A program made the position numbers and the translations under genes. A DNA stretch of 64,000 nucleotides from Tetracentron sinense (lineage: Eukaryota > Streptophyta > Magnoliopsida > Trochodendrales > Trochodendraceae): assembly GCA_015143295.1 (NCBI GenBank), contig CM026554.1:51210627-51274626 (forward strand), in the 5' to 3' direction. This document shows, piece by piece, positions 319 to 56,890 of the stretch. The first letter of the stretch is position 1. Each line of letters starts with the position of its first letter. The notes under the pieces were generated by a model. It made no database searches and was not told the origin of the DNA. It saw only the letters and a program-made list of their open reading frames with translations.

Positions 319-1548
319 GTTGGAAACGATGCAGGAGGATGGAGTATGACTCACAGCTTTATCTCACGGGATAAGGATGCAGATGAGACATTTGCATTCT
401 TATTCGGAGACATGGGGACTGCAACCCCATACTCAACCTTTCAGCGTACACAAAAGGAAAGCAAATTGACCATGAAATGGGTCCTTCGTGACATCGAGCA
501 GCTCGGTGATAAGCCCACCTTCATTTCTCACCTCGGTGATATCAGCTATGCAAGAGGTTACTCATGGTTGTGGGACACATTTTTCACTCAAATCGAACCT
601 GTTGCCGCCAAGGTCCCATATCATGTCTGCATTGGCAATCACGAGTATGACTGGCCATTACAGCCTTGGAAACCCGACTGGGCCAAGACAATTTATAAGA
701 AGGATGGGGGTGGTGAATGTGGGGTGCCATACAGCTTCAAGTTCCACATGCCTGGGAATGCTTCAGTACCAACTGGGATGCGTGCCCCTTCTACCTGGAA
801 CCTTTACTACTCTTTTGACGCCGGGGTTGTGCATTTCTTGTATATGTCAACTGAGACTGATTTCCTCCCTGGGAGCAAGCAGTACAACTATATCAAGCGC
901 GACTTGGAAACCGTTGATCGAAAAAAGACCCCTTTTGTTGTTTTTCAAGGCCATCGTCCTATGTACACAACGAGCAGCAATTTCAAAGACGCCCCACTGA
1001 GAGAGAGAATGCTTGTCCATTTAGAACCTCTGTTTGTAAAGTGCAAGGTGACCGTTGCACTATGGGGTCATGTTCACAGGTATGAGAGGTTCTGTCCAAT
1101 GAAGAACTTCACCTGTGGGGGCATTGGCCTCGATGGAGAAGATGGGGAGGATTTACCAATCCACATAGTGATTGGAATGGGAGGACAAGACTGGCAACCC
1201 ATTTGGACACCAAGGCCCGACCACCCTACAGACCCAGTCTTTCCTCAACCTGGTCAATCTTTGTACCGTTCAGGCGAGTTTGGCTACACCAGACTTGTTG
1301 CAACAAAGGAGAAGCTAACAATTACTTATGTAGGAAACCATGACGGGGAACCGCACGACATGGTGGAGATCCCAGCACCAGTTCGAGATCTCAATGTTTT
1401 TGATGAGGAGAAGCTAATCCTTACTTCTGTAGAAAACCACATTGGGGAGCTGAATGACTTGGTGGAGGTCCCGACGTTTAGCCAAGTTCCCCATAGTGAT
1501 GACCATGATGATGTTGGTGGTGATGCTTTAGTGGTGGAATCTGCATGA
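319..1548 (+). CDS. PAP2: purple acid phosphatase, PAP2/PAP9-like, 3' exon (partial, prematurely ended)
   Basis: This is the terminal exon of a metallophosphoesterase of the purple acid phosphatase family. It begins after a splice acceptor (ACCAG, ending at 318) and reads VGNDAGGWS before the Met codon at 346; the first exon lies upstream of the window. Counting from that Met, all five metal-binding blocks are present: GDMG (21-24), GDISYARGY (64-72), GNHE (97-100), GHRPMY (202-207) and GHVHRYER (241-248). The family member PAP2 in Arabidopsis is held on the outer membranes of chloroplasts and mitochondria by a C-terminal hydrophobic tail. Here the frame ends at 1548, because a 25-bp tandem duplication (1522-1571) shifts it just before that tail, which lies out of frame at 1571-1708. 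A 99-nt in-frame duplication also repeats the EKL..T.V.NH.GE..D.VE segment (about 1306-1404 and 1405-1503). Family assignment is firm; whether the truncated protein is functional is unknown. Confidence 0.9.
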
Positions 1549-1571
1549 TGCTTTAGTGGTGGAATCTGCAT
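1522..1571. repeat. 25-bp perfect tandem duplication ending the PAP2 frame
   Basis: Two identical 25-nt units lie head to tail at 1522-1546 and 1547-1571. As 25 is not a multiple of three, the second copy is shifted and a TGA forms at their junction (1546-1548). Reading from a single copy would continue into the hydrophobic tail. Confidence 0.95.
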
Positions 1572-1708
1572 GGTCTTGGTATGTGAAAGCGGGGTGTATC
1601 TTGGGGCTTGGGGCTTTTGTTGGGTATTCTCTTGGCTTCATCTCTCATTCCAGAAGAAGGACTTCCTCCAGAACTAGCTTGATTCCTATGAAAGGCGAGG
1701 AAGTATGA
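1571..1708 (+). pseudogene. out-of-frame PAP2 membrane-anchor tail
   Basis: In the frame set by the second 25-bp copy, 1571-1705 encodes 45 residues followed by TGA (1706-1708). It starts WSWYVKAG, continues with a hydrophobic Gly-rich run (CILGLGAFVGYSLGFI), then has a basic SRRRTSSR patch and ends MKGEEV. That layout matches the C-terminal tail I recall for Arabidopsis PAP2, ending near KNEET. In this sequence it is 3'UTR unless the duplication is absent from the mRNA. Confidence 0.85.
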
Positions 1709-1950: not shown

Positions 1951-1956
1951 AATAAA
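1951..1956 (+). terminator. probable poly(A) signal of the phosphatase gene
   Basis: AATAAA lies about 400 nt after the stop, in T-rich 3'UTR-like sequence. The cleavage site is not determinable. Confidence 0.45.
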
Positions 1957-17555: not shown

Positions 17556-17897
17556 ATATTAAAATGCCATTTGGTAACACAATGCTGCATGGATATCATG
17601 ATTAATATCCCATCTGCTGTCCACTTGGTGCACATGCAAGTGCAGTGCTGGCCATGTCTATAAGCTGCAACTCAAGCCTCATTAAGTGATACTAACCATC
17701 AATATTGAACTTTTTTTAGTGCTCTAGGAAACAGAATCCATTTATGGGATGACTAGGGTCATCTTTAATTTTGACATATTTTGGAGTTTTCCTCTCTTTT
17801 TCCATATTTATTTTTTTTGAACATCCTACTCTTGTTATATACACACTTACGTATATCTCTCTACCATATGTAGGACTCTGAATTTTTGGTGACTCGG

Positions 17898-19511
17898 ATG
17901 GCTAATCAAAATACGTCCACAATGATATTGTCTTCGGGATCCTCAGATCTCAGTGGAACAAAAACCATAAACTCAAGCATGGACCCGCTTCTTCCACCCC
18001 CTGACCAGCAAAGCAAGACCTCACACGGGCCTGTGGCTATTCTCTGGGACATTGAGAACTGCCCTGTCCCGAGTGATGTCCGCCCCGAAGATGTAGCAGG
18101 CAACATCCGCATGGCATTACGGGTCCACCCTGTGATCAAAGGAGCCGTTACAATGTTCTCCGCTTATGGGGATTTCAATGCCTTTCCCAGGCGACTTAGA
18201 GAGGGCTGCCAGAGAACTGGTGTAAAACTCATAGATGTCCCAAATGGAAGAAAGGATGCTGCTGACAAGGCTATCTTGGTTGACATGTTTCTGTTTGCTC
18301 TTGACAACCGCCCACCATCTTCAATTTTGCTGATATCGGGGGATGTAGATTTTTCTCCAGCATTGCACATACTTGGTCAACGTGGTTACATTGTCATCCT
18401 TGCTATTCCTTCTGGAGTGGGTGTTTCGTCTGCCCTGAGTAACGCTGGGAGATTTGTATGGGACTGGCCTAGTGTGGCTCGGGGAGAAGGCTTTCTGCCC
18501 CCTAAAGCTTTGATGCCCCGTGGATCGGCTGACGTTTCTGGGTATCTCATGGGGTGCCATATCAATGACAACCCTGATTGCCAAAATGAGGAAGAAGCAA
18601 TCGTGTATAGGGGAATCTCTCAAAGCGAGTATGCAGCTCGGGCTAACGTCAACCAGGTATACCGTTACAACACCTGGGATTTCTCAAGATCGCAGTCATT
18701 ATCTGAATACAGCAGTAGTTCAATTACCATGCCTTCTTTCCCTACTTCAAGATCCCAAAGTTTGCCTTATGGTTTGAGTGATGTTTCAGCGGGACCAGTT
18801 TCCAGCGACACGAACGAATCGCAAGACCCAACATTGTGGGTCCAGCCTGGAGACCTCAATGGTTTGAAGGGCCAGCTGGTGAAGCTGCTTGAGCTGTCAG
18901 GGGGATCCCTACCTCTTGTTCGTGTTCCTGCAGAGTACCAGAAGATTTTTGGGCGGCCCCTGTATGTAGCCGAATACGGAGCGTTTAAGCTGGTGAACCT
19001 TTTCAAGAAGATGGCGGACACAATGAGTGTGGAGGGGAAGGGCCATAGGAAGTCTGTCTACCTCCACAACTTTGGCAGACCCAACAAAATTGCCCCCAGT
19101 GCTCCATCAGGTCCTGCAAGGAAGGATACGAAAAGGAAGGAGCCTCAAGAAAGCACAGATATTAGCTTGTCTGCTATAACATGTTGTTCTTCAGATGAGT
19201 TTTCAGACGATGAAAGGGTGGTTGAGCATGATGTGAAGAGTGCAGAGACCACTTTGGGGGCAGTCAATAAGATTGACGACCGTCTCGAATGGTTCAAGCA
19301 TGAACTACAAGAAATTCTTGTGAGCTACTCGTGTCGGATTTTTCTTGGTTGCTTTGAGGCGATATACCAGCAGCGGTACAAGAAAGCACTAGACTATCGA
19401 AGTTTTGGTGTGGATAAGCTGGAGGAGCTGTTTGATAAGGTCAGAGATGTTGTGATCTTGCATGAGGAACAGGGAAGCAAGAGGAAGTTCCTGGCTGCTG
19501 TAAGTGGTTAG
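17898..19511 (+). CDS. NYN-domain (PIN-like) RNase with two LOTUS/OST-HTH domains, MARF1-like
   Basis: One coding exon of 537 residues. I chose the ATG at 17898 as the first in-frame ATG after the acceptor ending at 17873. Residues about 44-190 form a NYN domain, a PIN-like ribonuclease fold. Conserved acidic motifs are WDIENC (D51, E53), RKDAADKAILVDM (D120, D123, D129) and SGDVDF (D149, D151). A Ser-rich linker follows. Residues about 313-391 (LKGQLVKLLELSGGSLPLVRVP...VYLHN) are a first LOTUS/OST-HTH domain, and about 461-535 (WFKHELQEILVSYSCRI...) a second. Animal MARF1 uses this combination to cut RNA; plant homologues are annotated as putative endonucleases and are poorly studied. A catalytic role is inferred from the intact acidic residues. 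The 3'UTR holds a 77-bp tandem duplication. Confidence 0.9.
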   Translation: MANQNTSTMILSSGSSDLSGTKTINSSMDPLLPPPDQQSKTSHGPVAILWDIENCPVPSDVRPEDVAGNIRMALRVHPVIKGAVTMFSAYGDFNAFPRRLREGCQRTGVKLIDVPNGRKDAADKAILVDMFLFALDNRPPSSILLISGDVDFSPALHILGQRGYIVILAIPSGVGVSSALSNAGRFVWDWPSVARGEGFLPPKALMPRGSADVSGYLMGCHINDNPDCQNEEEAIVYRGISQSEYAARANVNQVYRYNTWDFSRSQSLSEYSSSSITMPSFPTSRSQSLPYGLSDVSAGPVSSDTNESQDPTLWVQPGDLNGLKGQLVKLLELSGGSLPLVRVPAEYQKIFGRPLYVAEYGAFKLVNLFKKMADTMSVEGKGHRKSVYLHNFGRPNKIAPSAPSGPARKDTKRKEPQESTDISLSAITCCSSDEFSDDERVVEHDVKSAETTLGAVNKIDDRLEWFKHELQEILVSYSCRIFLGCFEAIYQQRYKKALDYRSFGVDKLEELFDKVRDVVILHEEQGSKRKFLAAVSG

Positions 19512-37486: not shown

Positions 37487-40400
37487 TTAGGCAGCAGTCC
37501 CTGTTCCAGCTGCATGTTTCTTCACCATGGCAGCATGCTTTTGCCCTGCAAGATGATAATTGAAGACTACGTCGCTATTGCACACCACATTGCATATCGC
37601 ACATGCCCTGACAGCCTCTGCTGCTGCTCCACCTTCCAAGAGCTTCCGTCTCTTTGTTTCCAGATCTTCTTCAGGAACCGGTGGGGCCACCTTCCTTTTC
37701 ATCTGTTGCACAGCCGGGTTTTCTACAGGCCCAATTGTCAAAGCCACGGGTGTAGCAGTGGAGACGGTAGCATTTGCACCTTTTTTCGATTCTTCTATTT
37801 TCTCCAGGTTCTTATTGTGCTTCTTTCCTAGTTTGTGTTGGTCAAGGACGTCCTTGCTGTTACAGTCAATCTTGCAGATCTCACACCATGCAGATTGCAC
37901 AATCTTGGTTTTCTTTGGGCCCCTCCTCCAGGTTCCATTTCCATGAGACCGAAATGGCGGGTTGGTATAGAAAATGGGATTTGGATTTGCAGCGACCAAC
38001 GACACTGTCCCATTTGGAGGTCTTGTGCCGGCCTGCACAGTAACCGGAAGAGAGATGACAAATATTCATGTATGGATGCATATATGTATAGTTATGGACC
38101 ATTAGACATCATAAGTCACCCCACAAAGCCCCAATCCCGCTTCAAAACCAATAAGCATCTGCAAAACATGCTGGCATGCACCTAATAGATGCATAAACTC
38201 GCAAATAGAAGTATGGTCCAATGAAATTCATAAAAACACATCAAACGCATTTACAGGGTGACATACATGCAAACATGTGTATAGATGAAAGGAGGGATCA
38301 CAAAGAAGCAAACTCATTTGTGAAAAGATGCAGCCCTTTCATGATGATATTCTGAAAAGTAATAAAGGAAAAAAGAAATAAACTGGAAACGTGTATGAAC
38401 AAGAAATAAACTAACACTTCACATCATCACAGTGAAGAGAGTATTCTATCCAAAAGAAAAAAGAAATTTAAGTTCTTTAAATTTCGAGTGGGGCGATGCG
38501 AAAACCCGAAGGGACTAGCCTTGGCTCGAAGGCTTTGGGACACCCACCATTACCCAAAATAAATTCAATTTGATTCTGGGAGATGCAGTAAGGGACAGTA
38601 ATTAAAATTCACAATTGTAAATTTCAATAACACCCCAAAACAAAGTGAACAAAGCTTTGGTTCATACTTCATAAATACGTACAGCTCAAAGGTTCAGTAT
38701 GACTCACAGAGTAATGGCAAATGGGAAATTTAGAACACACTAACAACAAGGAAGCCAAAAATCTTAGGCCCCACCTGCATGAGGCCAACAAGGGTTAAGT
38801 AGGATCAAGAACACAAGAATTCCTTATCACCGTAGATCCCACAAGATAGAGATATAAAAACATGAATAGTACTCTTATCCTCGAAAAGACCTATATAGGA
38901 AGAACTTGTTGGAATTTGGCTCGAATAAGAAAAACCCCAAGGGGCGATCGATCGCCCAATGCACCGTTTTGGTGTGGAATTTTCGGAAAATTTGTATTTT
39001 AGCCTCTTTATGTTTTGGGAAACCGCTATTCCGATTGAGGGACTTTCTATTAATTTAGGGCTCTTGCTTAGGCCTATAAATAGGTGATTATGGGTCTAGG
39101 GTTTGTATCTTTGTATCTAAGGATCAAGGGAATACTTTTGCATTGAGAGTGGGAGGTAATAGAAAGGGTTAAAGCATACTAGGGCTTGGGAAAGGTTTAA
39201 GGGAGGATAGATAAGGATTCTTCTTTGGGTTTTCATAGAAAATGTGAGTTGAGTGCTTTTGTAATGGTTCCTCAAGGTTTTTGTGAATAAAGAAGTGATC
39301 GGATTTTGACCCGTGGACGTAGGCAGGTTGTTGCCGAACCACGTAAATCTCTTGTGTTCCCTTGTGGTGTGTGTTTGGGTTTATTCTTTTCCGTCGGGTT
39401 ATTTTTTATTGGTTGTTTTTCCCACAACAAATTGGTATCAGAGCTTCGGGTTGGGTTAATTATTTTTCAATGGCTTTAAAAAATTCTAAGCAATTTTCCT
39501 TAGAGAAGAATTTCAATCTGTGGCAAAGGAGGGTAAAGGATGTCCTAGTTCAACAGGGTCTCGCAAGAGTGTTGAAGGGGGATTCCAGTAGACCGGAAAA
39601 GATGTCTGATGCAGATTGGGAAGACATTGAGGCGAGGGCAGTCAGCACAATACGCCTCTGTCTTGCAGATAACGTGATGCATAGGGTTATGGATAAAGAA
39701 TCAGCACCAGATCTTTGGAAGAAGTTGGAAATGCTCTACATCGAAAAGAGTCTTACCAACAGGTTATACTTGAAAAAGGAGTTCAATACCTTAAAGATGT
39801 CGGAGGGTGCATATCTCATGGAGCACATTAATGTGTCAACCAGATCTTTAATCAACTATTGAAAGTTGGTGTCAAGGTGGATGAAGAAGACCAGGCCGTG
39901 GGGCTTCTTACAACACTTCCAGACTCATATGATCACTTGGTGACAACTCTCATGTATGGCAAGGAGACATTACTGATGGAAGAGGTCACGGCAGAGCTAC
40001 TCTCTTATGAGATTGGGCGAAAGTCATCGCATGATGGAAATAATCATATCATGGTTGCTCGGGGAAGAGGAAGAGACTTGGAGAGAGCATCTGGAAAAGG
40101 CAGTGGTAGATCCAAATCCAAGGGAAAAGGCGGGATCCAGTGCTATCATTGCAAAGAATTAGGGCATTTCAAAAGGGAGTGTCTGAGGCGTGCTAATGGG
40201 ACGAGGAATTCTTCCGGAGGAGATTCTTCGGCGGCAATAGCAACGGATAATGAGGAATACATTAGAGATGTTTTCACAGTCTCCAAGGTATGAACAATTC
40301 TTCTAGTGAGTAGATTTTAGATTCGGGGGCTTCATGTCATATTTGCTCAAATATGAAATTTTTTGATACATTTCAAAATTGGACAGGAAAAGTGTTCCTG

Positions 40401-43400
40401 GGTGATAGATCTGAATGTGAAATCACGGGATTTGGTAATGTAAAGATAAAAATGTTTAATAGAGTTATTCGGACTTTGGGAGGGGTAGCTTATGTCCCTA
40501 AGTTGCAAAGAAATTTAATATCCCTCGGGCAATTAGACTCCAAGGGCTGTTGCTACACAGTTGCAGGTGGAATTATCAAAATAAAGCGAGAAAAGCAGGG
40601 TTGCTTAGTTTTGATGAAGAGGAAGAAGTATGAAGGATTATATCTCCTGGAGGGGAATACGGTGGTAGGTGGAGCTACTACAATGTCTGCAGGAAAATGA
40701 AAACCTGATGTTGTGCAGAGGGTAGAAAGCTCACCTAAAGTCTCTTTCGCAGTCGGTGTAGAGATAGGTATTCCGGTAGGTTTTTGTAAGGGTGGAGATG
40801 GTGATGATGTGCCTTTGACGGAGAGGACTGGTCTATGTCCTCGTCCGGGATTCTTTTAGATTGGAGAATGAGTTTTCAGGCTACACATGGGTTTTGGTCA
40901 TGTTTTATCGAATCCGGTGGAATACTTTCAAGGGTTGGATTTGAGGGTCTGTGTAGCTGGTGGGTCTCTTTCGCAGATGGTGCAGAGGCGATCAAGGTCA
41001 AAGCGGGAGCTTGCGGTATTTGCAAACGGGTTTGCGGTAATTGCAAACAGGTCTTCAAAATTTTGGGAGAGATTTTGGTTCAAGGTGGAGGTGCTTCCCG
41101 GATGTGGGCGATGCGGTGTTCTATGTTGAAGGTTTGCTTGGTGATTAGCAAATCGATTCTCTTGATTGCGGGTGGGGTCGCGGAATTCTCGCCAAGGTGA
41201 AGATTGTTGGAATTTGGCTCGAATAAGAAAAACCCCAGGGGGCGATCGATCGCCCAATGCGCCATTGTGGCGTGGAATTTTCGGGAAATTTGTATTTTCG
41301 CCTCTTTATGTTTTGGGAAACCCCTATTCCGATTGGAGAACTTTCTATTAGTCTAGGGCTCTTGTTTAGGCCTATAAATAGGTGATTATGGGTCTAGGGT
41401 TTGTATCTTTGCATCTAAGGATCAAGGGAATGTTTTTGCATTGAAAGTGGGAGGTAATAGAAAGGGTTAAAGCATACTAGGGCTTGGGAAAGGTTTAAAG
41501 GAGGATAGATAGGGATTCTTCTTTGGGTTTTCATAGAGAAGGTGAGTTGAGTGCTTTTGTACTGGTTCCTCAAGGTTTCTGTGAATAAAGAAGTGATCGG
41601 ATCTTGACCCGTAGACGTAGGCAGGTTGTTGATGAACCCCGTATATCTCTTGTGTTCCCTTGTGGTGTGTGTTTGGGTTTATTCTTTTCCGTCGGGTTAT
41701 TTTCTATTGGTTGTTTTTCCCACAACAAAACTATCATGTATAGTACTCTTATACTTACTCAAATGTTGTGTTCCATATCCCCTATAAGGATGTAGAATAA
41801 TTTCCAATCCACCTGTTGCATTGCTTTCCATTAAGACTCGTAACCATATTGGCGTCCAGGTAATACCCCACAACTTCTATCAAGGCGATTAGTCATTAAT
41901 TCTTCCCTGTTCCAATTCCCCTAAAAATAAAGTTTGTCCTGAAATCAACAAACACAAATTTGGTAGCTTCGCCAGCAACCCAGTCAGAGGAAGTTGCAAT
42001 TTCCACCATGCACCCTTAAGGGCCTAAGGCAAATCTTTATAAAAGAGTAGCCAAATAGTCCACTCCTGAACCAGTCCTAAGCTAGATATTCCAACATATA
42101 TAAGGTAACAGCATGAACCCCACCGAAGAAGTTAAATCCTAAACATTCCAATATGTTGACTCAAATCCATCCTGTCCACTAGAGGACCCCAGACTTGTGC
42201 ACTAAACCACTTACTGTAAGAAGTGCTGTAACCCCACTCAGCCTTCTAGCCAACTGAGTTTTCCATCTCTCTTACCAACCCACATTCAAATTGAAATATT
42301 GCATAGACACCCTCTTAATAATGCCTAATCAGAGTTGATTGTGCTGTTCAAGAAGGCAAGCATCTTATCCACACCTCTCAACCAAATCTAATGAAGAAGA
42401 CACATCACATATTTATCTTACACATCTACAGATGCTTTTTGCACAAGGCAAAGCATATTTCCGGTTGACATAGAGTGATCCCTGAAACATTTACAATGTT
42501 AATACAGGAATATTTGTTCTGCCATAATCTTAAGATTGTCAAGGAGAAAGAATATTAGTTAAGATTGCTGATGCAGGAAAATTTTCTGCTCAACAATATT
42601 TAAAAGCTCTGGTTAGAGGTCAGACCTCTCAAACTACCAGAATCTCAAGAAACCTTCGTTCTACTTCCTCATCTAAAATTTATTAAGCATATAGAGTTAT
42701 TGACCCGGGACAGAAATGATATTCCTAAGTTTTCTTGAAAATTAGAAATTATCTGTAGTGTTAACTAAAGAGGGTAGTAGGGTTTCAACTTTCAATAAAC
42801 AAGTTTTCAAGCTACAGATTTAGGACTTCAAGGGTCTGAAACAAAAGGTGGACAAGTTTATAAAGTGAGTACAGATGTTGCTATGGACCTAAACTAGGAG
42901 CAGAAATTGAAAACAAGAAGAAGTCAGCAATCCAAAAACTTGAGTCCTTAATGTCCGACCTTGGACCTCTAATTTGAGATTTGACTCACCAATCAACCAG
43001 AGTTGCTACACCTCTGAAACCAGCACCAATGCAGCTAAAACGAAAGTTTATTCAACTTCAACAGTAAAAATAAAAGTACTCCATGCAAATGTACTGGACA
43101 GCATCCCTCAGCAACTCCCATTTAGACTCAAACAATGACTTGCTAAAGAATAACTTAGAACTTGGAATAAAAGACTTTCCTAAACCTATCATGATCATGG
43201 TTCAAAATATCGGTATCGGTCGCCGTATCGGTTAGCCCAAAATAGGATACGTATCGGCGTATCGGTACCGTATCGGTTGGATACGGCGTAAAAATTCAGG
43301 ATACGCTAAAAAAAGCTTGGATACGCAAGGAAAAACTTGGATACCTTACATAAAACCTCTTTTAATGCAGATATAATCTAAAAACAAACTAAATGAAGAC

Positions 43401-46400
43401 CTTCAACTACATTTATAATCATACATATGAGAATTAAAAAAGTTATAAGTTAAAAAAGGCGTGCGCGTTGATAAATATGCATGAAAATACAAACAATAGT
43501 TAGTTAACCAAGTATAAGAAATACAATCTAGAATTAATGATCATTAGTATATATCAACTTAGAGTTGAAAATTTAAGTTATCTACACTTAATATTTCAAT
43601 GATTATCCATTTTAATTGTTTTAGATATCTAAAGAATTTATGAATACACATTTCACTAATTGAAATTTAGCATTTTAGTTTCCAAACCTATTTCTATCTG
43701 CAATTGACGAGCTCGATGTTTTTTTTGAGGACTTAAACAATATGGGAAGATGAGGAAATTGTTGAATAATCGAAGACCCAGCATCAAGATCAAACGAAAT
43801 CAAGATCAAACGAAGATGATTATAATTTTATTTGACTATGAAGTGGATGTAAATATAATTTTTTATTTTTTTATGTAATCAAGCAGGACCATTGTTCAAT
43901 TTTTTTTATTTTTTATTTTTGATGTAAACAAGCAGATGACTGTAATTTTATTTGGTAGTTGTTAGTCTATGCTCTGTTTGTTTGGGCTCTTTATGATTCA
44001 CTATTTGTGAATCCTCATTTTTTAATGAAATTACTTCTTACCGACAAAAAAAATATAAACAAGTAGGACTTCCAAATCTATTGAGTGGTGTTTAGCCGTT
44101 TAGGTGATTACAAGTTAACAGGGTTAATTTTTTTTATAAAAAAAACCAAGGTTAGATTGTTGAACCCCAAGGGTTAGTGAATCTTAAGCACAGTTAATAA
44201 GAGTTAAAAGAGACACGTTGGCATGTGGGTGTGATTTTTTTAATAGGGTTAATTTTATTTATTTTTATAACCTTGGGAGATTTCAATCGCACTTATTGAC
44301 TGTCCCTTTTAACTCCTACTAACTGTAGTTAAGATTCACTAACCCTTAGGATTCAATAATCTAAGCTTGATTTAAAAAAAAAAAAAAACTTTAGAGTGAA
44401 AAATTCTTATCCTTTTAATCTGTATCAGTCATTTTTTAATAGCTCTCCTCTTTTTTTTTTTTAAATCTCTCCCTTGAACACCATCGGTCGATGCTTTAAA
44501 TTTTTTTTTTTGTAAAACAGCTGCGTATCACAGCGTATCGGTGCGTATCGGTGCGTATCGGTGAGTATCGGTGAGTATCGGTGAGTATCGGTGCGTATCG
44601 GTACCGATACGCACCGATACGCAGTATTTTTTTCCTTCCTGCGTATCTCTGTATCGGTAGGCTGCAAATCCGGTACGTATCGGCCCGTATCGGCCGATAC
44701 GTATCGATATTTTGAACTATGATCATGATTGTTAAGACAATTATGAAACTTGCAGAAAAGAAACTTGAGCCCAAAATGGTAATCCTGCCATGGATGTACA
44801 CCTATCCATAATTTGGTAATAAACTCAAATCATATCCAAAATGGTGCAATCTTTCGATCGTTAGATAGCAAATCAAATAAGACCTCTAATGAATCCAAAT
44901 CAGAGCATAGAACCTATCTACAAGTGAACTGACGGGATTGGAATTTTTTTAAATCGGTTAAAAAATATATATCGATAGATTAAAAAGAGAGTAGTAAAAA
45001 GGGTTCACTTAGGAGTGAACCAGGAAAAAAATACAGTAAATAGGAAACCATCTGCACATGACTCACAGCCTAAGCATCTAAAATACAAGTGGCACTTTAA
45101 GCCTTATTTGTACTTGATTATCATATCCATAAAAAGAAACAACAGCTATAAATATACACATCATTTAAGGTAAAGCTGTCCTCATGAAAGCTAGGATGCA
45201 GTGGTTGGTGGTCGGAGCAATAGAATCTTAATAAGCTGGCGTGAGATTGAGATACCCAAGGCATAGTGACAAAGTCGGGGTTCGGGAATAATTTGGCAAG
45301 GGCCAAGTTCGGAAAAAATTGGGAAATATTCAAGAACAATTCGGGAAAAAAATTATAATTATAAAAAGATCTCCAACAATTTGATTATAAAATATACAAA
45401 AATAAGCAATTTACTTTGTCAAACTAAACGAATTATTGCGAAATTCAAGAATAATTCGTGAAATTCGGGAATAATTCGCAAAATCCGCGAATAATTTGAC
45501 AAACCTAAAATTCAGAGTATGTGTCGGCACACCTAAAATTCGCAAATATTTCAAAAATTCAGAGAATTTTGTCACTATGACCCAAGGTAATTAATCCAAG
45601 GCTATGTGGTTCCCGTCAGGTCCTTGTAAGGTATCATATTTTATGTTGACTGCAGTTTTAGACAAAATCTTAACAAGCGATAATCTAATGAATAGAAGGT
45701 GGTGTCTGGCTAACAGATACTTTATGTGCCTTTTAGCGGAGAATTCAGTAGATCACACAGTGAGCCAACTAAATAAGAAGCTCCGAAAGGAGCAGGGAAA
45801 GACCTAAGGGATGCAGAGATGAGGAAGGAAATAAGACCAAACCTCTTGAGCCACCGGGACAGTTTGGCCTTTCCTACCAGGGGCAATAGCATGGGCCCTG
45901 TGGAAGAAAAGGAACAAGAGGGTCTTTGAGGGTGTATCCGTGCCCATCCCTAGGATCTAGGCACGGGCTTGTTCGCTAGTTTCAACCTGGTCTTCAGTGA
46001 AGGGCGGTGTTGACGACCCTTGGGGGGGGGGGGGGTTACTTTCTAGCATGGGTGGGAGTTTCTGGATGTTGCTTTTTGTGATTTTTTGGCTCCATATCTA
46101 CTTGTCTTTGCTTTCCTTCTTGGTTCAATAAATCTTGATATGTATCTCCCTTTCCCCTATTTATATCATCTTCTTTTACTGATCAAAAAAAAAAAATTAA
46201 TCCAACAATCAAGTCTATTCATAGTTACCAGAGCGAGAAGCGAAAATGAGAAACAAAGTGAAAAGCGAGAAACAAGGCTCAAATAAACTTTAGGAAAGGG
46301 GAAGTGAGAAATGAAATATAGGCTCCTCATTCTCATTATGTTATTATCGGTAGTTATTCTTTTATTTTATCTTACATGAGATTTTTGTGGACAAGTAGGT

Positions 46401-54368: not shown

Positions 54369-56090
54369 TCAGCTAGAGATCAGACCCACCAGTGGCTCAT
54401 GGTTGCAGTTACTTCCAACCCAACATGGCTTGAACCCAACATGGACATTGGTCTCTTCCTCCATAGGAGCAGGGAGATTAAGATCGAGTAGATCACGAAT
54501 CACAGGAAGCTGCTTTTGAATTACAATTGTCTGATTGCCTCTGGCATCAGAACCCCCAACCAAATGGGACCTCTTGTGACCACCCAAAGCTTGGCCTGAT
54601 GCAAAAACCTTACGGCAGAAAGGGCATTCGTGCCCTTTACTATTCTTAGACCCTTTACATTTCTCAGCATTTCCACCTACATCCTGATCAATTGGGTTCT
54701 TAATTATGCAAGATTTGATATACTTACTGTCAGCTGTAGGCTCAGGAGAAATGTTGGTCTCAATGCTGTTTTCACTGCTCTCAATTTTCGATGCAAAGCA
54801 GCCACCGATCTTTTTATGGCTCGCTCTGTGTCCTCCAAGAGCCTGGTAAGAGTGGAAGATTTTGTTGCAGGTCGTGCACTCGAATTTGCTTTTCTTATGA
54901 GCATCCTTGCAGATTTCGGAGTCGGAAGCATCATATTTTATAAGCTTGAAGGTATTTCCTCCCAATTCAGGATAGTAAGCATCACTCCTGGTTCTCTTGC
55001 TTGAATTATACTTCCTGGATCCCAAATCATCATGATTGAATCCAATTTCCTTGATCAAATCCTTCCCCAATTCAGCTTCAGTACACTTGACTTTGTTTTC
55101 ATTACATAAATCCTTCTCCAATTCAGCATTAGACGCCTCAAATCCGGATTCATGATCCAGTTTAGGATTCTTAAGTTCATCATCCCTGAGAAAACCATCA
55201 ACAGAAACTTCCAATTCGACCTTCTTAACATCATCCCTCAAAAACTCAGAACCAGAAACAGCAAAGTCAGATCTTTCCATCTCGAATCGAACATTATCAG
55301 AATCCGAAAGGCGATATTCTAATTTCTTATCTATTGGTTTCTTTATCTTCACAGTCTCACCACCATTAAGGACAAAAATTTTACCTTCTTTTTTAGTAAT
55401 TTGCTTATCTAGACATGATGATCTAGCTTCTAAAACCAAAGAATTATTATCAGAAGACTCTCTAGAAGAATTCAACCCACCCCAATGACCCACATCCTTA
55501 GACAACATCATCAAACACATAGCTACCTCTTCTTGTTCTTGCTCAATCTTAGAGACAGATGTAGAAGCAATTGCAAAAGAAAAAGAAGTTTTATTAGTCT
55601 TGTACCTCGTTCTTCTCGATCTTTGCCTCCGTCTCGGAGCGGCGGCTTCATTGACAGATTGGCTGTCCATGACTAGCTTCTGGTTGGAACTAGTCCCTGA
55701 ATCATCCTCAATTGTGTTGGAAATTCTATCTCTCTCTGAGTGACACCTCATGTGACCAAAAAGAGCTTTCCATGACTGAAACCCTTTACCACACTCTTTA
55801 CAAACCTTCTCTTGCCATAAATTTCCATTGCTTGAATCTGATAGTCTCCAAGTTTTCTTGGGGTTCTCTCTAAGGCCATAACTAGAATGGCCGCCAGATT
55901 CAAAACCCATGTAGCTGTTACTGCTGCTTCCACCACTAGCAGACGAGACCTTCCTCTTACTGAGCTTCTCCTCTGTTTCAGCCGAGTTCATGGTCATATG
56001 AGACCTCATGTGACCTCCTAAGGATCTCCCACAGAGGAAACTCTTCTTGCAGAACTTGCATACATGATTCTGTTCTTGGTGTTCTTTCAT
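54369..56090 (-). CDS. C2H2 zinc-finger transcriptional repressor, ZAT-like, four fingers with EAR motif
   Basis: One exon, 573 residues; the ATG at 56090 opens MKEHQEQNHVCKFC. Four plant C2H2 fingers are visible: C11, C14, H27, H31 (GRSLGGHMRSH); C97, C100, H113, H117 (WKALFGHMRCH); a third near 410-432 (FECTTCNKIF..YQALGGHRASH); and a fourth near 487-509 (HECPFCRKVF..GQALGGHKRSH). The last two have the plant-specific QALGGH DNA-contact helix. Fingers one and two have variants (SLGGH, ALFGH). A basic RRRQRSRR patch may be a nuclear signal. Near the C-terminus LLDLNLPAP (about 534-542) is an EAR repression motif of the DLNLP type. Family members are intronless nuclear repressors, often stress- or development-related; the target is unknown. 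The 5' flank has CT-rich leader sequence near 56525-56550. Confidence 0.9.
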   Translation of the reverse strand: MKEHQEQNHVCKFCKKSFLCGRSLGGHMRSHMTMNSAETEEKLSKRKVSSASGGSSSNSYMGFESGGHSSYGLRENPKKTWRLSDSSNGNLWQEKVCKECGKGFQSWKALFGHMRCHSERDRISNTIEDDSGTSSNQKLVMDSQSVNEAAAPRRRQRSRRTRYKTNKTSFSFAIASTSVSKIEQEQEEVAMCLMMLSKDVGHWGGLNSSRESSDNNSLVLEARSSCLDKQITKKEGKIFVLNGGETVKIKKPIDKKLEYRLSDSDNVRFEMERSDFAVSGSEFLRDDVKKVELEVSVDGFLRDDELKNPKLDHESGFEASNAELEKDLCNENKVKCTEAELGKDLIKEIGFNHDDLGSRKYNSSKRTRSDAYYPELGGNTFKLIKYDASDSEICKDAHKKSKFECTTCNKIFHSYQALGGHRASHKKIGGCFASKIESSENSIETNISPEPTADSKYIKSCIIKNPIDQDVGGNAEKCKGSKNSKGHECPFCRKVFASGQALGGHKRSHLVGGSDARGNQTIVIQKQLPVIRDLLDLNLPAPMEEETNVHVGFKPCWVGSNCNHEPLVGLISS

Positions 56091-56890
56091 CGATTACTCA
56101 GAAATCAACGAAACCCAGATCAAAAGACCAAATGAACACTCAAATCTGATGGCCAAATTTGCAAGAATGCTGAAATTCTATTACGCTGTCCATCAAGACG
56201 ACCTAAATGCTTAAGAAACAGGGGAACCCAGAAAACCCCAGATCAGAAAACCAAAGTAGAGCTCAAATCTAACAAGAAAATTTGATCAGATCATGGGTTT
56301 TTTTCTTGCTTTTCTCCAACTGATCAAAGAAGAAACCATACTCAAATTTCGTAGTGTTCATGAGCAAGAACAAGATCTGAAGCACAAGCCCACTGAATTT
56401 GATCTCCCTTCTCTCACTCTTATTCTCTTGGTAGTTTAAACTCAAATTTGAAGAAATGGATCTGAGAGCTTTGTTGGCTAATGATGACGATGAACAGGCC
56501 ACACACACAAAAATTAAAGTGCTCTGTCTCTCTCTCTATCTTCTCTCTCTTGTGGTATGCTATATTTGGAGGAGAAATCCATGCATGGAAGCAAGGCAGC
56601 AACTAGCAAGGATAAAAAAGGAAAAAAACAGAAAGGAAAGATAGCATCACGTGCTCAGGTGAGAATCATACGCCGGCCCATCCAACGGCCATGATTTCTC
56701 CATTTTAGCATCCTGGTGAGAGCCCTACTTAGACTAACTGCCCCCAAACTATCCCTTCATTTGTCTTCCTCTTTTCCACACACAGCTAACAGGTTCCAAT
56801 CCCCAACTGTTGCTCTTTGGGACCTTCTCAGTTTCCTCATATTCTATATTTATATTAATATGCATACATCACAGATTTTCATAATACATA
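56091..56890. other. upstream region of the ZAT-like gene
   Basis: Probable leader with CT-rich tract (about 56520-56552), then AT-rich DNA. No gene or element recognised. Confidence 0.4.

Follow-up and report, generated by a model that had tools for sequence, protein, structure and literature searches.

The window, as we call the 64,000-nucleotide stretch of the Tetracentron sinense genome analysed here, begins in the interior of an intron of a gene for a PAP2-like phosphatase. Exon 1 of this gene lies upstream of the window (C4:51209076-51209789; 238 codons, open, donor AAG/GTAATT), and exon 2 follows an ATACCAG acceptor with its first base at 319; the predicted product comprises 647 residues before the stop. 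The features of the locus are listed below, in positions of the window.

319..1548, plus strand: exon 2 (last) of the PAP2-like gene through its TGA, 409 codons; acceptor AG 317-318, phase 0
409..1077, plus strand: purple-acid-phosphatase metal motifs (DMG 409, GDISY 535, GNHE 634, GHVH 1066, and a fourth block with QGH)
1309..1506, plus strand: older in-frame tandem duplication, units at 1309 and 1408, spacing 99 bp; absent from the C18 paralogue
1521..1545, plus strand: first 25-bp copy
1546..1570, plus strand: second 25-bp copy, opening with an in-frame TGA
1571..1708, plus strand: out-of-frame 45-codon tail with hydrophobic span, basic patch and acidic end; stop 1706-1708
1951..1956, plus strand: AATAAA, candidate poly(A) signal, its role inferred

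The first-pass annotation had claimed two perfect 25-bp copies, and these are confirmed: TGATGCTTTAGTGGTGGAATCTGCA at 1521-1545 is repeated at 1546-1570 with 100% identity. The annotated start at 1522 falls inside a 2-bp ambiguity of register, since the self-match at offset 25 spans 27 positions. The frame that runs through 319-1545 is closed by TGA 1546-1548, and a separate frame, open across 1571-1705 up to the stop at 1706-1708, would encode WSWYVKAGCILGLGAFVGYSLGFISHSRRRTSSRTSLIPMKGEEV. An intact 45-residue tail out of frame had been described, and it is indeed present, matching the in-frame tail of a paralogue on C18. The frame loss had been placed at residue 400, counted from a Met at 346. 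The loss stands but the numbering does not: with exon 1 upstream of the window, this Met is internal, and the last in-frame residue is predicted to be number 647. Re-initiation into the tail was considered and rejected, as the ATGATG at the junction belongs to the third frame, and this stays open for just three codons. The candidate AATAAA lies ~400 nt past the early stop and ~240 nt past the stop of the tail.

Could such a pair arise by chance? We scanned the window for perfect tandem pairs in which the unit is repeated in full at least once, at periods 7-399 and with simple repeats omitted, and the 25-bp pair is the only one with a period of 20 or more. Five simulated sequences with the dinucleotides of the window, scanned at periods 7-59, contained no perfect tandem pair above period 10. 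The pair is therefore not a product of chance.

Phosphatase domain and metal motifs

The identification of a PAP2-like enzyme holds. Metallophos and Metallophos_C (exon 2) and Pur_ac_phosph_N (exon 1) score above their Pfam cut-offs, which marks the product as a plant purple acid phosphatase, and the C4 and C18 copies score alike on Pfam; fn3_PAP stays under its cut-off of 33 bits in both (29.9 for the window copy, 28.7 for the C18 copy). The best solved relative of both is 3ZK4, with 154.5 bits for C4 and 157 bits for C18; the corresponding scores for 4DHL are 65.6 and 61.2 bits. 3ZK4 is Diphosphonucleotide phosphatase 1, the lupin PPD1. Although it is the closest solved sequence of both copies, its match stops short of linker and tail. 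The alignment covers exon-2 residues 26-359 of 409 and Metallophos_C stops at 347, so the folded part ends ahead of the 25-bp duplication, which is positioned in the linker beyond the region matched by 3ZK4.

All metal-site motifs had been reported as present, which requires a qualification. Four of the five blocks (DMG, GDISY, GNHE and GHVH) match strictly, but the fourth block, VVFQGH from residue 445, departs from the listed VXXH: it keeps the His and reads FQGH. Its counterparts read FLAH in 3ZK4 and IQGH in the C18 copy. The N-terminus of the window gene is strongly hydrophobic (hydropathy 2.1). The best 19-residue hydropathy is 1.65 in the window tail and 1.87 in the C18 tail, against 0.56 in the last 120 residues of the shortened product.

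The C18 paralogue and the history of the pair

A search of the same genome with the DNA of the tail region returned two matches, the C4 locus itself and C18:14472327-14472477 (75%). Exon 2, searched as protein, gave at least 19 matches from 28 candidates scored, two of them PAP2-like: the C4 gene (100%) and the C18 gene (80% over residues 1-359). The next match among those listed shows 40% identity over part of the domain. Our count of two genes of PAP2 type is based on exon 2 and the tail-region DNA, and match counts for this large family are lower bounds. The C18 gene, at 14.47 Mb, lacks both the 25-bp duplication and the older in-frame one, and reads into its tail, SWYVKAGSVLMLGAFVGYVVGFISHARRDAASRKNWTPVKSDEV, in frame. 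The C-terminal hydrophobic motif of the tail-anchored PAP2/PAP9 subgroup is thus present in frame in the C18 paralogue and absent from the window copy, where it lies behind TGA 1546.

The units of the older duplication agree at 51 of their first 69 bases and at 13 of the last 30; over 67 bp their identity is 78%. The linker is longer by 33 residues. The linker of the window copy therefore seems to have been hit by tandem duplication twice, without effect on the frame in one case and breaking it in the other; alternatively, the older unit may have been lost from C18 instead of gained in C4.

Where does the pair come from? A single-frame gene of 545 codons with NYN and OST-HTH/LOTUS domains lies at 17874-19508 of the window and has relatives at C18:14375340-14376944 and C23:19840842-19842458. 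The order and relative strand of NYN/LOTUS and PAP genes agree on C4 and C18; the two genes are ~17 kb apart on C4 but ~95 kb apart on C18. The dS values of the NYN/LOTUS genes (0.56 for C4-C18, 0.55 for C4-C23, 0.33 for C18-C23) fit two successive genome duplications. This synteny, of one neighbour gene, suggests that the C4 and C18 PAP genes likewise stem from genome duplication. The PAP pair, however, has a dS of 0.93 in the exon-2 core and 1.32 in exon 1, exceeding the 0.56 of the neighbour pair, so that a shared origin is likely but not proved.

Between C4 and C18, dN/dS comes to 0.13 for exon 1 (231 codons, counted without the start of the C18 frame ahead of a second Met), 0.12 for the exon-2 core (354 codons) and 0.31 for the tail (44 codons). 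With these ratios, and with scores like those of the C18 copy, the core of the C4 gene appears not visibly decayed. Amino-acid changes affect 20 of 101 sites in the tail and 86 of 832 in the exon-2 core (p = 0.007, rounded counts); silent changes do not differ, at 15/31 and 122/230 (p = 0.70, rounded counts). The contrast of amino-acid with silent change is not significant for the tail versus the exon-2 core (p = 0.10) or versus exon 1 and core together (p = 0.16). A plant outgroup for the tail was sought: none of 3 candidate stretches was confirmed among viral contigs, and the 3 of 48 confirmed among genome contigs were all bacterial records. With no outgroup obtained, the amino-acid excess in the tail is assignable to neither copy.

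The duplication had been said to look recent. Its identical copies allow this, but their identity bounds the age only weakly: at the substitution rate of 3.25e-9 per site per year given for Trochodendrales in PMC7709256, 0 differences in 25 sites set a 95% upper bound of 18.4 My, and at 4.3 My the probability of zero differences is still one half.

Authenticity and fate of the C4 allele

Is the duplication a mutation of the plant, or an artefact of its assembly? We surveyed 279,901 bases, made up of 20 stretches of 10 kb at chosen, non-random coordinates (most of them round numbers, some close to earlier matches) together with the window, the 6 kb upstream of it and the stretch L004. This sample holds 14 perfect tandem pairs of period 12-299, eight of which have periods of 15 or more (16, 19, 20, 21, 25, 28, 46 and 57), the window pair alone having period 25. 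It contains no N bases and no cluster of period-25 duplications. The mixed periods and the lack of N led us to reject a fixed-length (k-mer) assembly artefact, although this site may still hold a local error, and the spread of periods points to an ordinary class of mutation. Short tandem duplications in plants reportedly arise when breaks or nicks are repaired (Vaughn and Bennetzen, 2014, and Schiml et al., 2016, both as cited in PMC7971508). The window pair is likewise perfect and head-to-tail, is tens of bases long and has 2 bp of edge homology; we saw no difference from this class, a single-unit ancestor of the C4 locus being inferred from the paralogue and from the frame of the tail. According to earlier rice work cited in PMC7971508, tandem duplication during repair accounts for half or more of the new insertions longer than 10 bp.

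We consider it improbable that an assembly or consensus error, or a rare allele, stands behind the pair and that the usual sequence of the plant has one 25-bp unit. According to PMC7709256, the published T. sinense assembly (24 chromosomes, 1.17 Gb in total) goes back to PacBio long reads and went through quickmerge merging, gap closure and polishing; joins of this kind could leave local duplications. Moreover, our evidence comes from one assembly only, a second one with 19 chromosome-size scaffolds and 908 Mb being described in PMC8810787. Against an error speak the repeated Illumina polishing described in PMC7709256, the survey results above, and the region search, which matched C4 once and C18 once and met no alternative contig.

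Our preferred reading, to which we assign a probability of roughly 0.6, is that a genuine 25-bp duplication in one of two PAP2-type genes leaves this gene with a tail-less phosphatase or a decaying message, tolerated thanks to the intact copy. The duplication in the last exon would belong to the type that break repair, or the repair of adjacent nicks, leaves behind; by shifting the frame it would bring a stop to the junction, and the product would end in the linker, ahead of the C-terminal anchor. The predicted protein would retain a hydrophobic N-terminus and a complete metallophosphatase domain. If made, it would probably be a soluble enzyme; should its N-terminus act as a signal peptide, it would enter the secretory route. 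Loss of the C4 tail would be tolerable because the C18 gene can supply the anchored form. What first looked like a loss of function thus looks like the wear of one duplicate. The higher rate of amino-acid change in the tail counts against this reading.

Part of the same evidence bears on the possibility, which we regard as unlikely though one to be taken seriously, that the C4 gene is a pseudogene in the making. Its early stop and longer 3' UTR would then expose the message to nonsense-mediated decay, or yield a misplaced, useless protein, while C18 does the work. The intact second copy, the older duplication in the C4 linker, the excess of amino-acid change per site in the tail and the dS of the PAP pair, higher than that of the neighbour genes, all fit such a course. 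The core dN/dS of about 0.12-0.13 speaks against it, though such averages hide recent relaxation, and no further stop or splice-site lesion was found among the 647 codons of the C4 gene. More doubtful is a stable division of labour, in which C4 now encodes a soluble secretory phosphatase and its C18 partner the anchored one, a post-duplication pair that has shared out one enzyme over two compartments. With C18 still intact, we favour a tolerated loss or a gradual decay over a new role. Least credible, and hardly to be expected, is a splicing event that takes out the stop and brings the tail back into frame, to give a nearly normal protein. Each 25-bp copy does contain an acceptor-like TTTAG, but ~1100-1560 holds a single donor with at least 6 of 9 consensus positions, at 1252, and the three frame-restoring introns that start there (304, 337 and 442 bp) all cut into Metallophos_C. 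An intron of 25 nt would be too short for plants.

Where the shortened product would reside depends on a dispute over AtPAP2. The tail had been held to be required for docking on chloroplasts and mitochondria. PMC8303434 states as much, placing AtPAP2 and AtPAP9 as tail-anchored proteins on the outer membranes of both organelles, and adds that most plants have a single tail-anchored gene of this type. The point is disputed, as PMC5977197 locates AtPAP2 on the plasma membrane via a signal peptide that is dominant over the tail, reports a tail-less form mainly in the ER, and describes the tail as conserved in all land plants. The shortened C4 product is accordingly predicted to be secretory and soluble on the view of PMC5977197, and cytosolic on that of PMC8303434.

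Compared by description, not by alignment, the T. sinense genes share with AtPAP2 and AtPAP9 a leader, a phosphatase domain and a C-terminal hydrophobic motif (in frame in C18), and the pair possibly goes back to a genome duplication, as proposed for AtPAP2/AtPAP9. The window copy differs in that a stop precedes its out-of-frame tail and that its linker contains an extra duplicated unit. Our literature search found no paper naming both Tetracentron and purple acid phosphatase, and a limited look met no natural loss of a PAP2 tail, which is not to claim its absence from print. If the division of labour suggested above holds, C4 would lack, by natural deletion, a tail that all land plants reportedly conserve. 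If the allele is real and expressed, it would offer a natural counterpart to the tail-deletion constructs that figure in the AtPAP2 location dispute, beside an intact anchored copy; if it is not, the locus is a routine case of a duplicated gene losing its end.

Elsewhere the window holds a Copia-type retrotransposon remnant at 39347-40700, with gag over two open frames, a zinc knuckle and a Pol beta-barrel domain. A ten-base tandem array of about 8 copies, unit TGCGTATCGG, occupies 44522-44602, and short tandem pairs resembling it are found at 43250, 44603 and 44676. On the minus strand, an open frame of 574 codons at 54369-56093 contains four C2H2 zinc-finger stretches.
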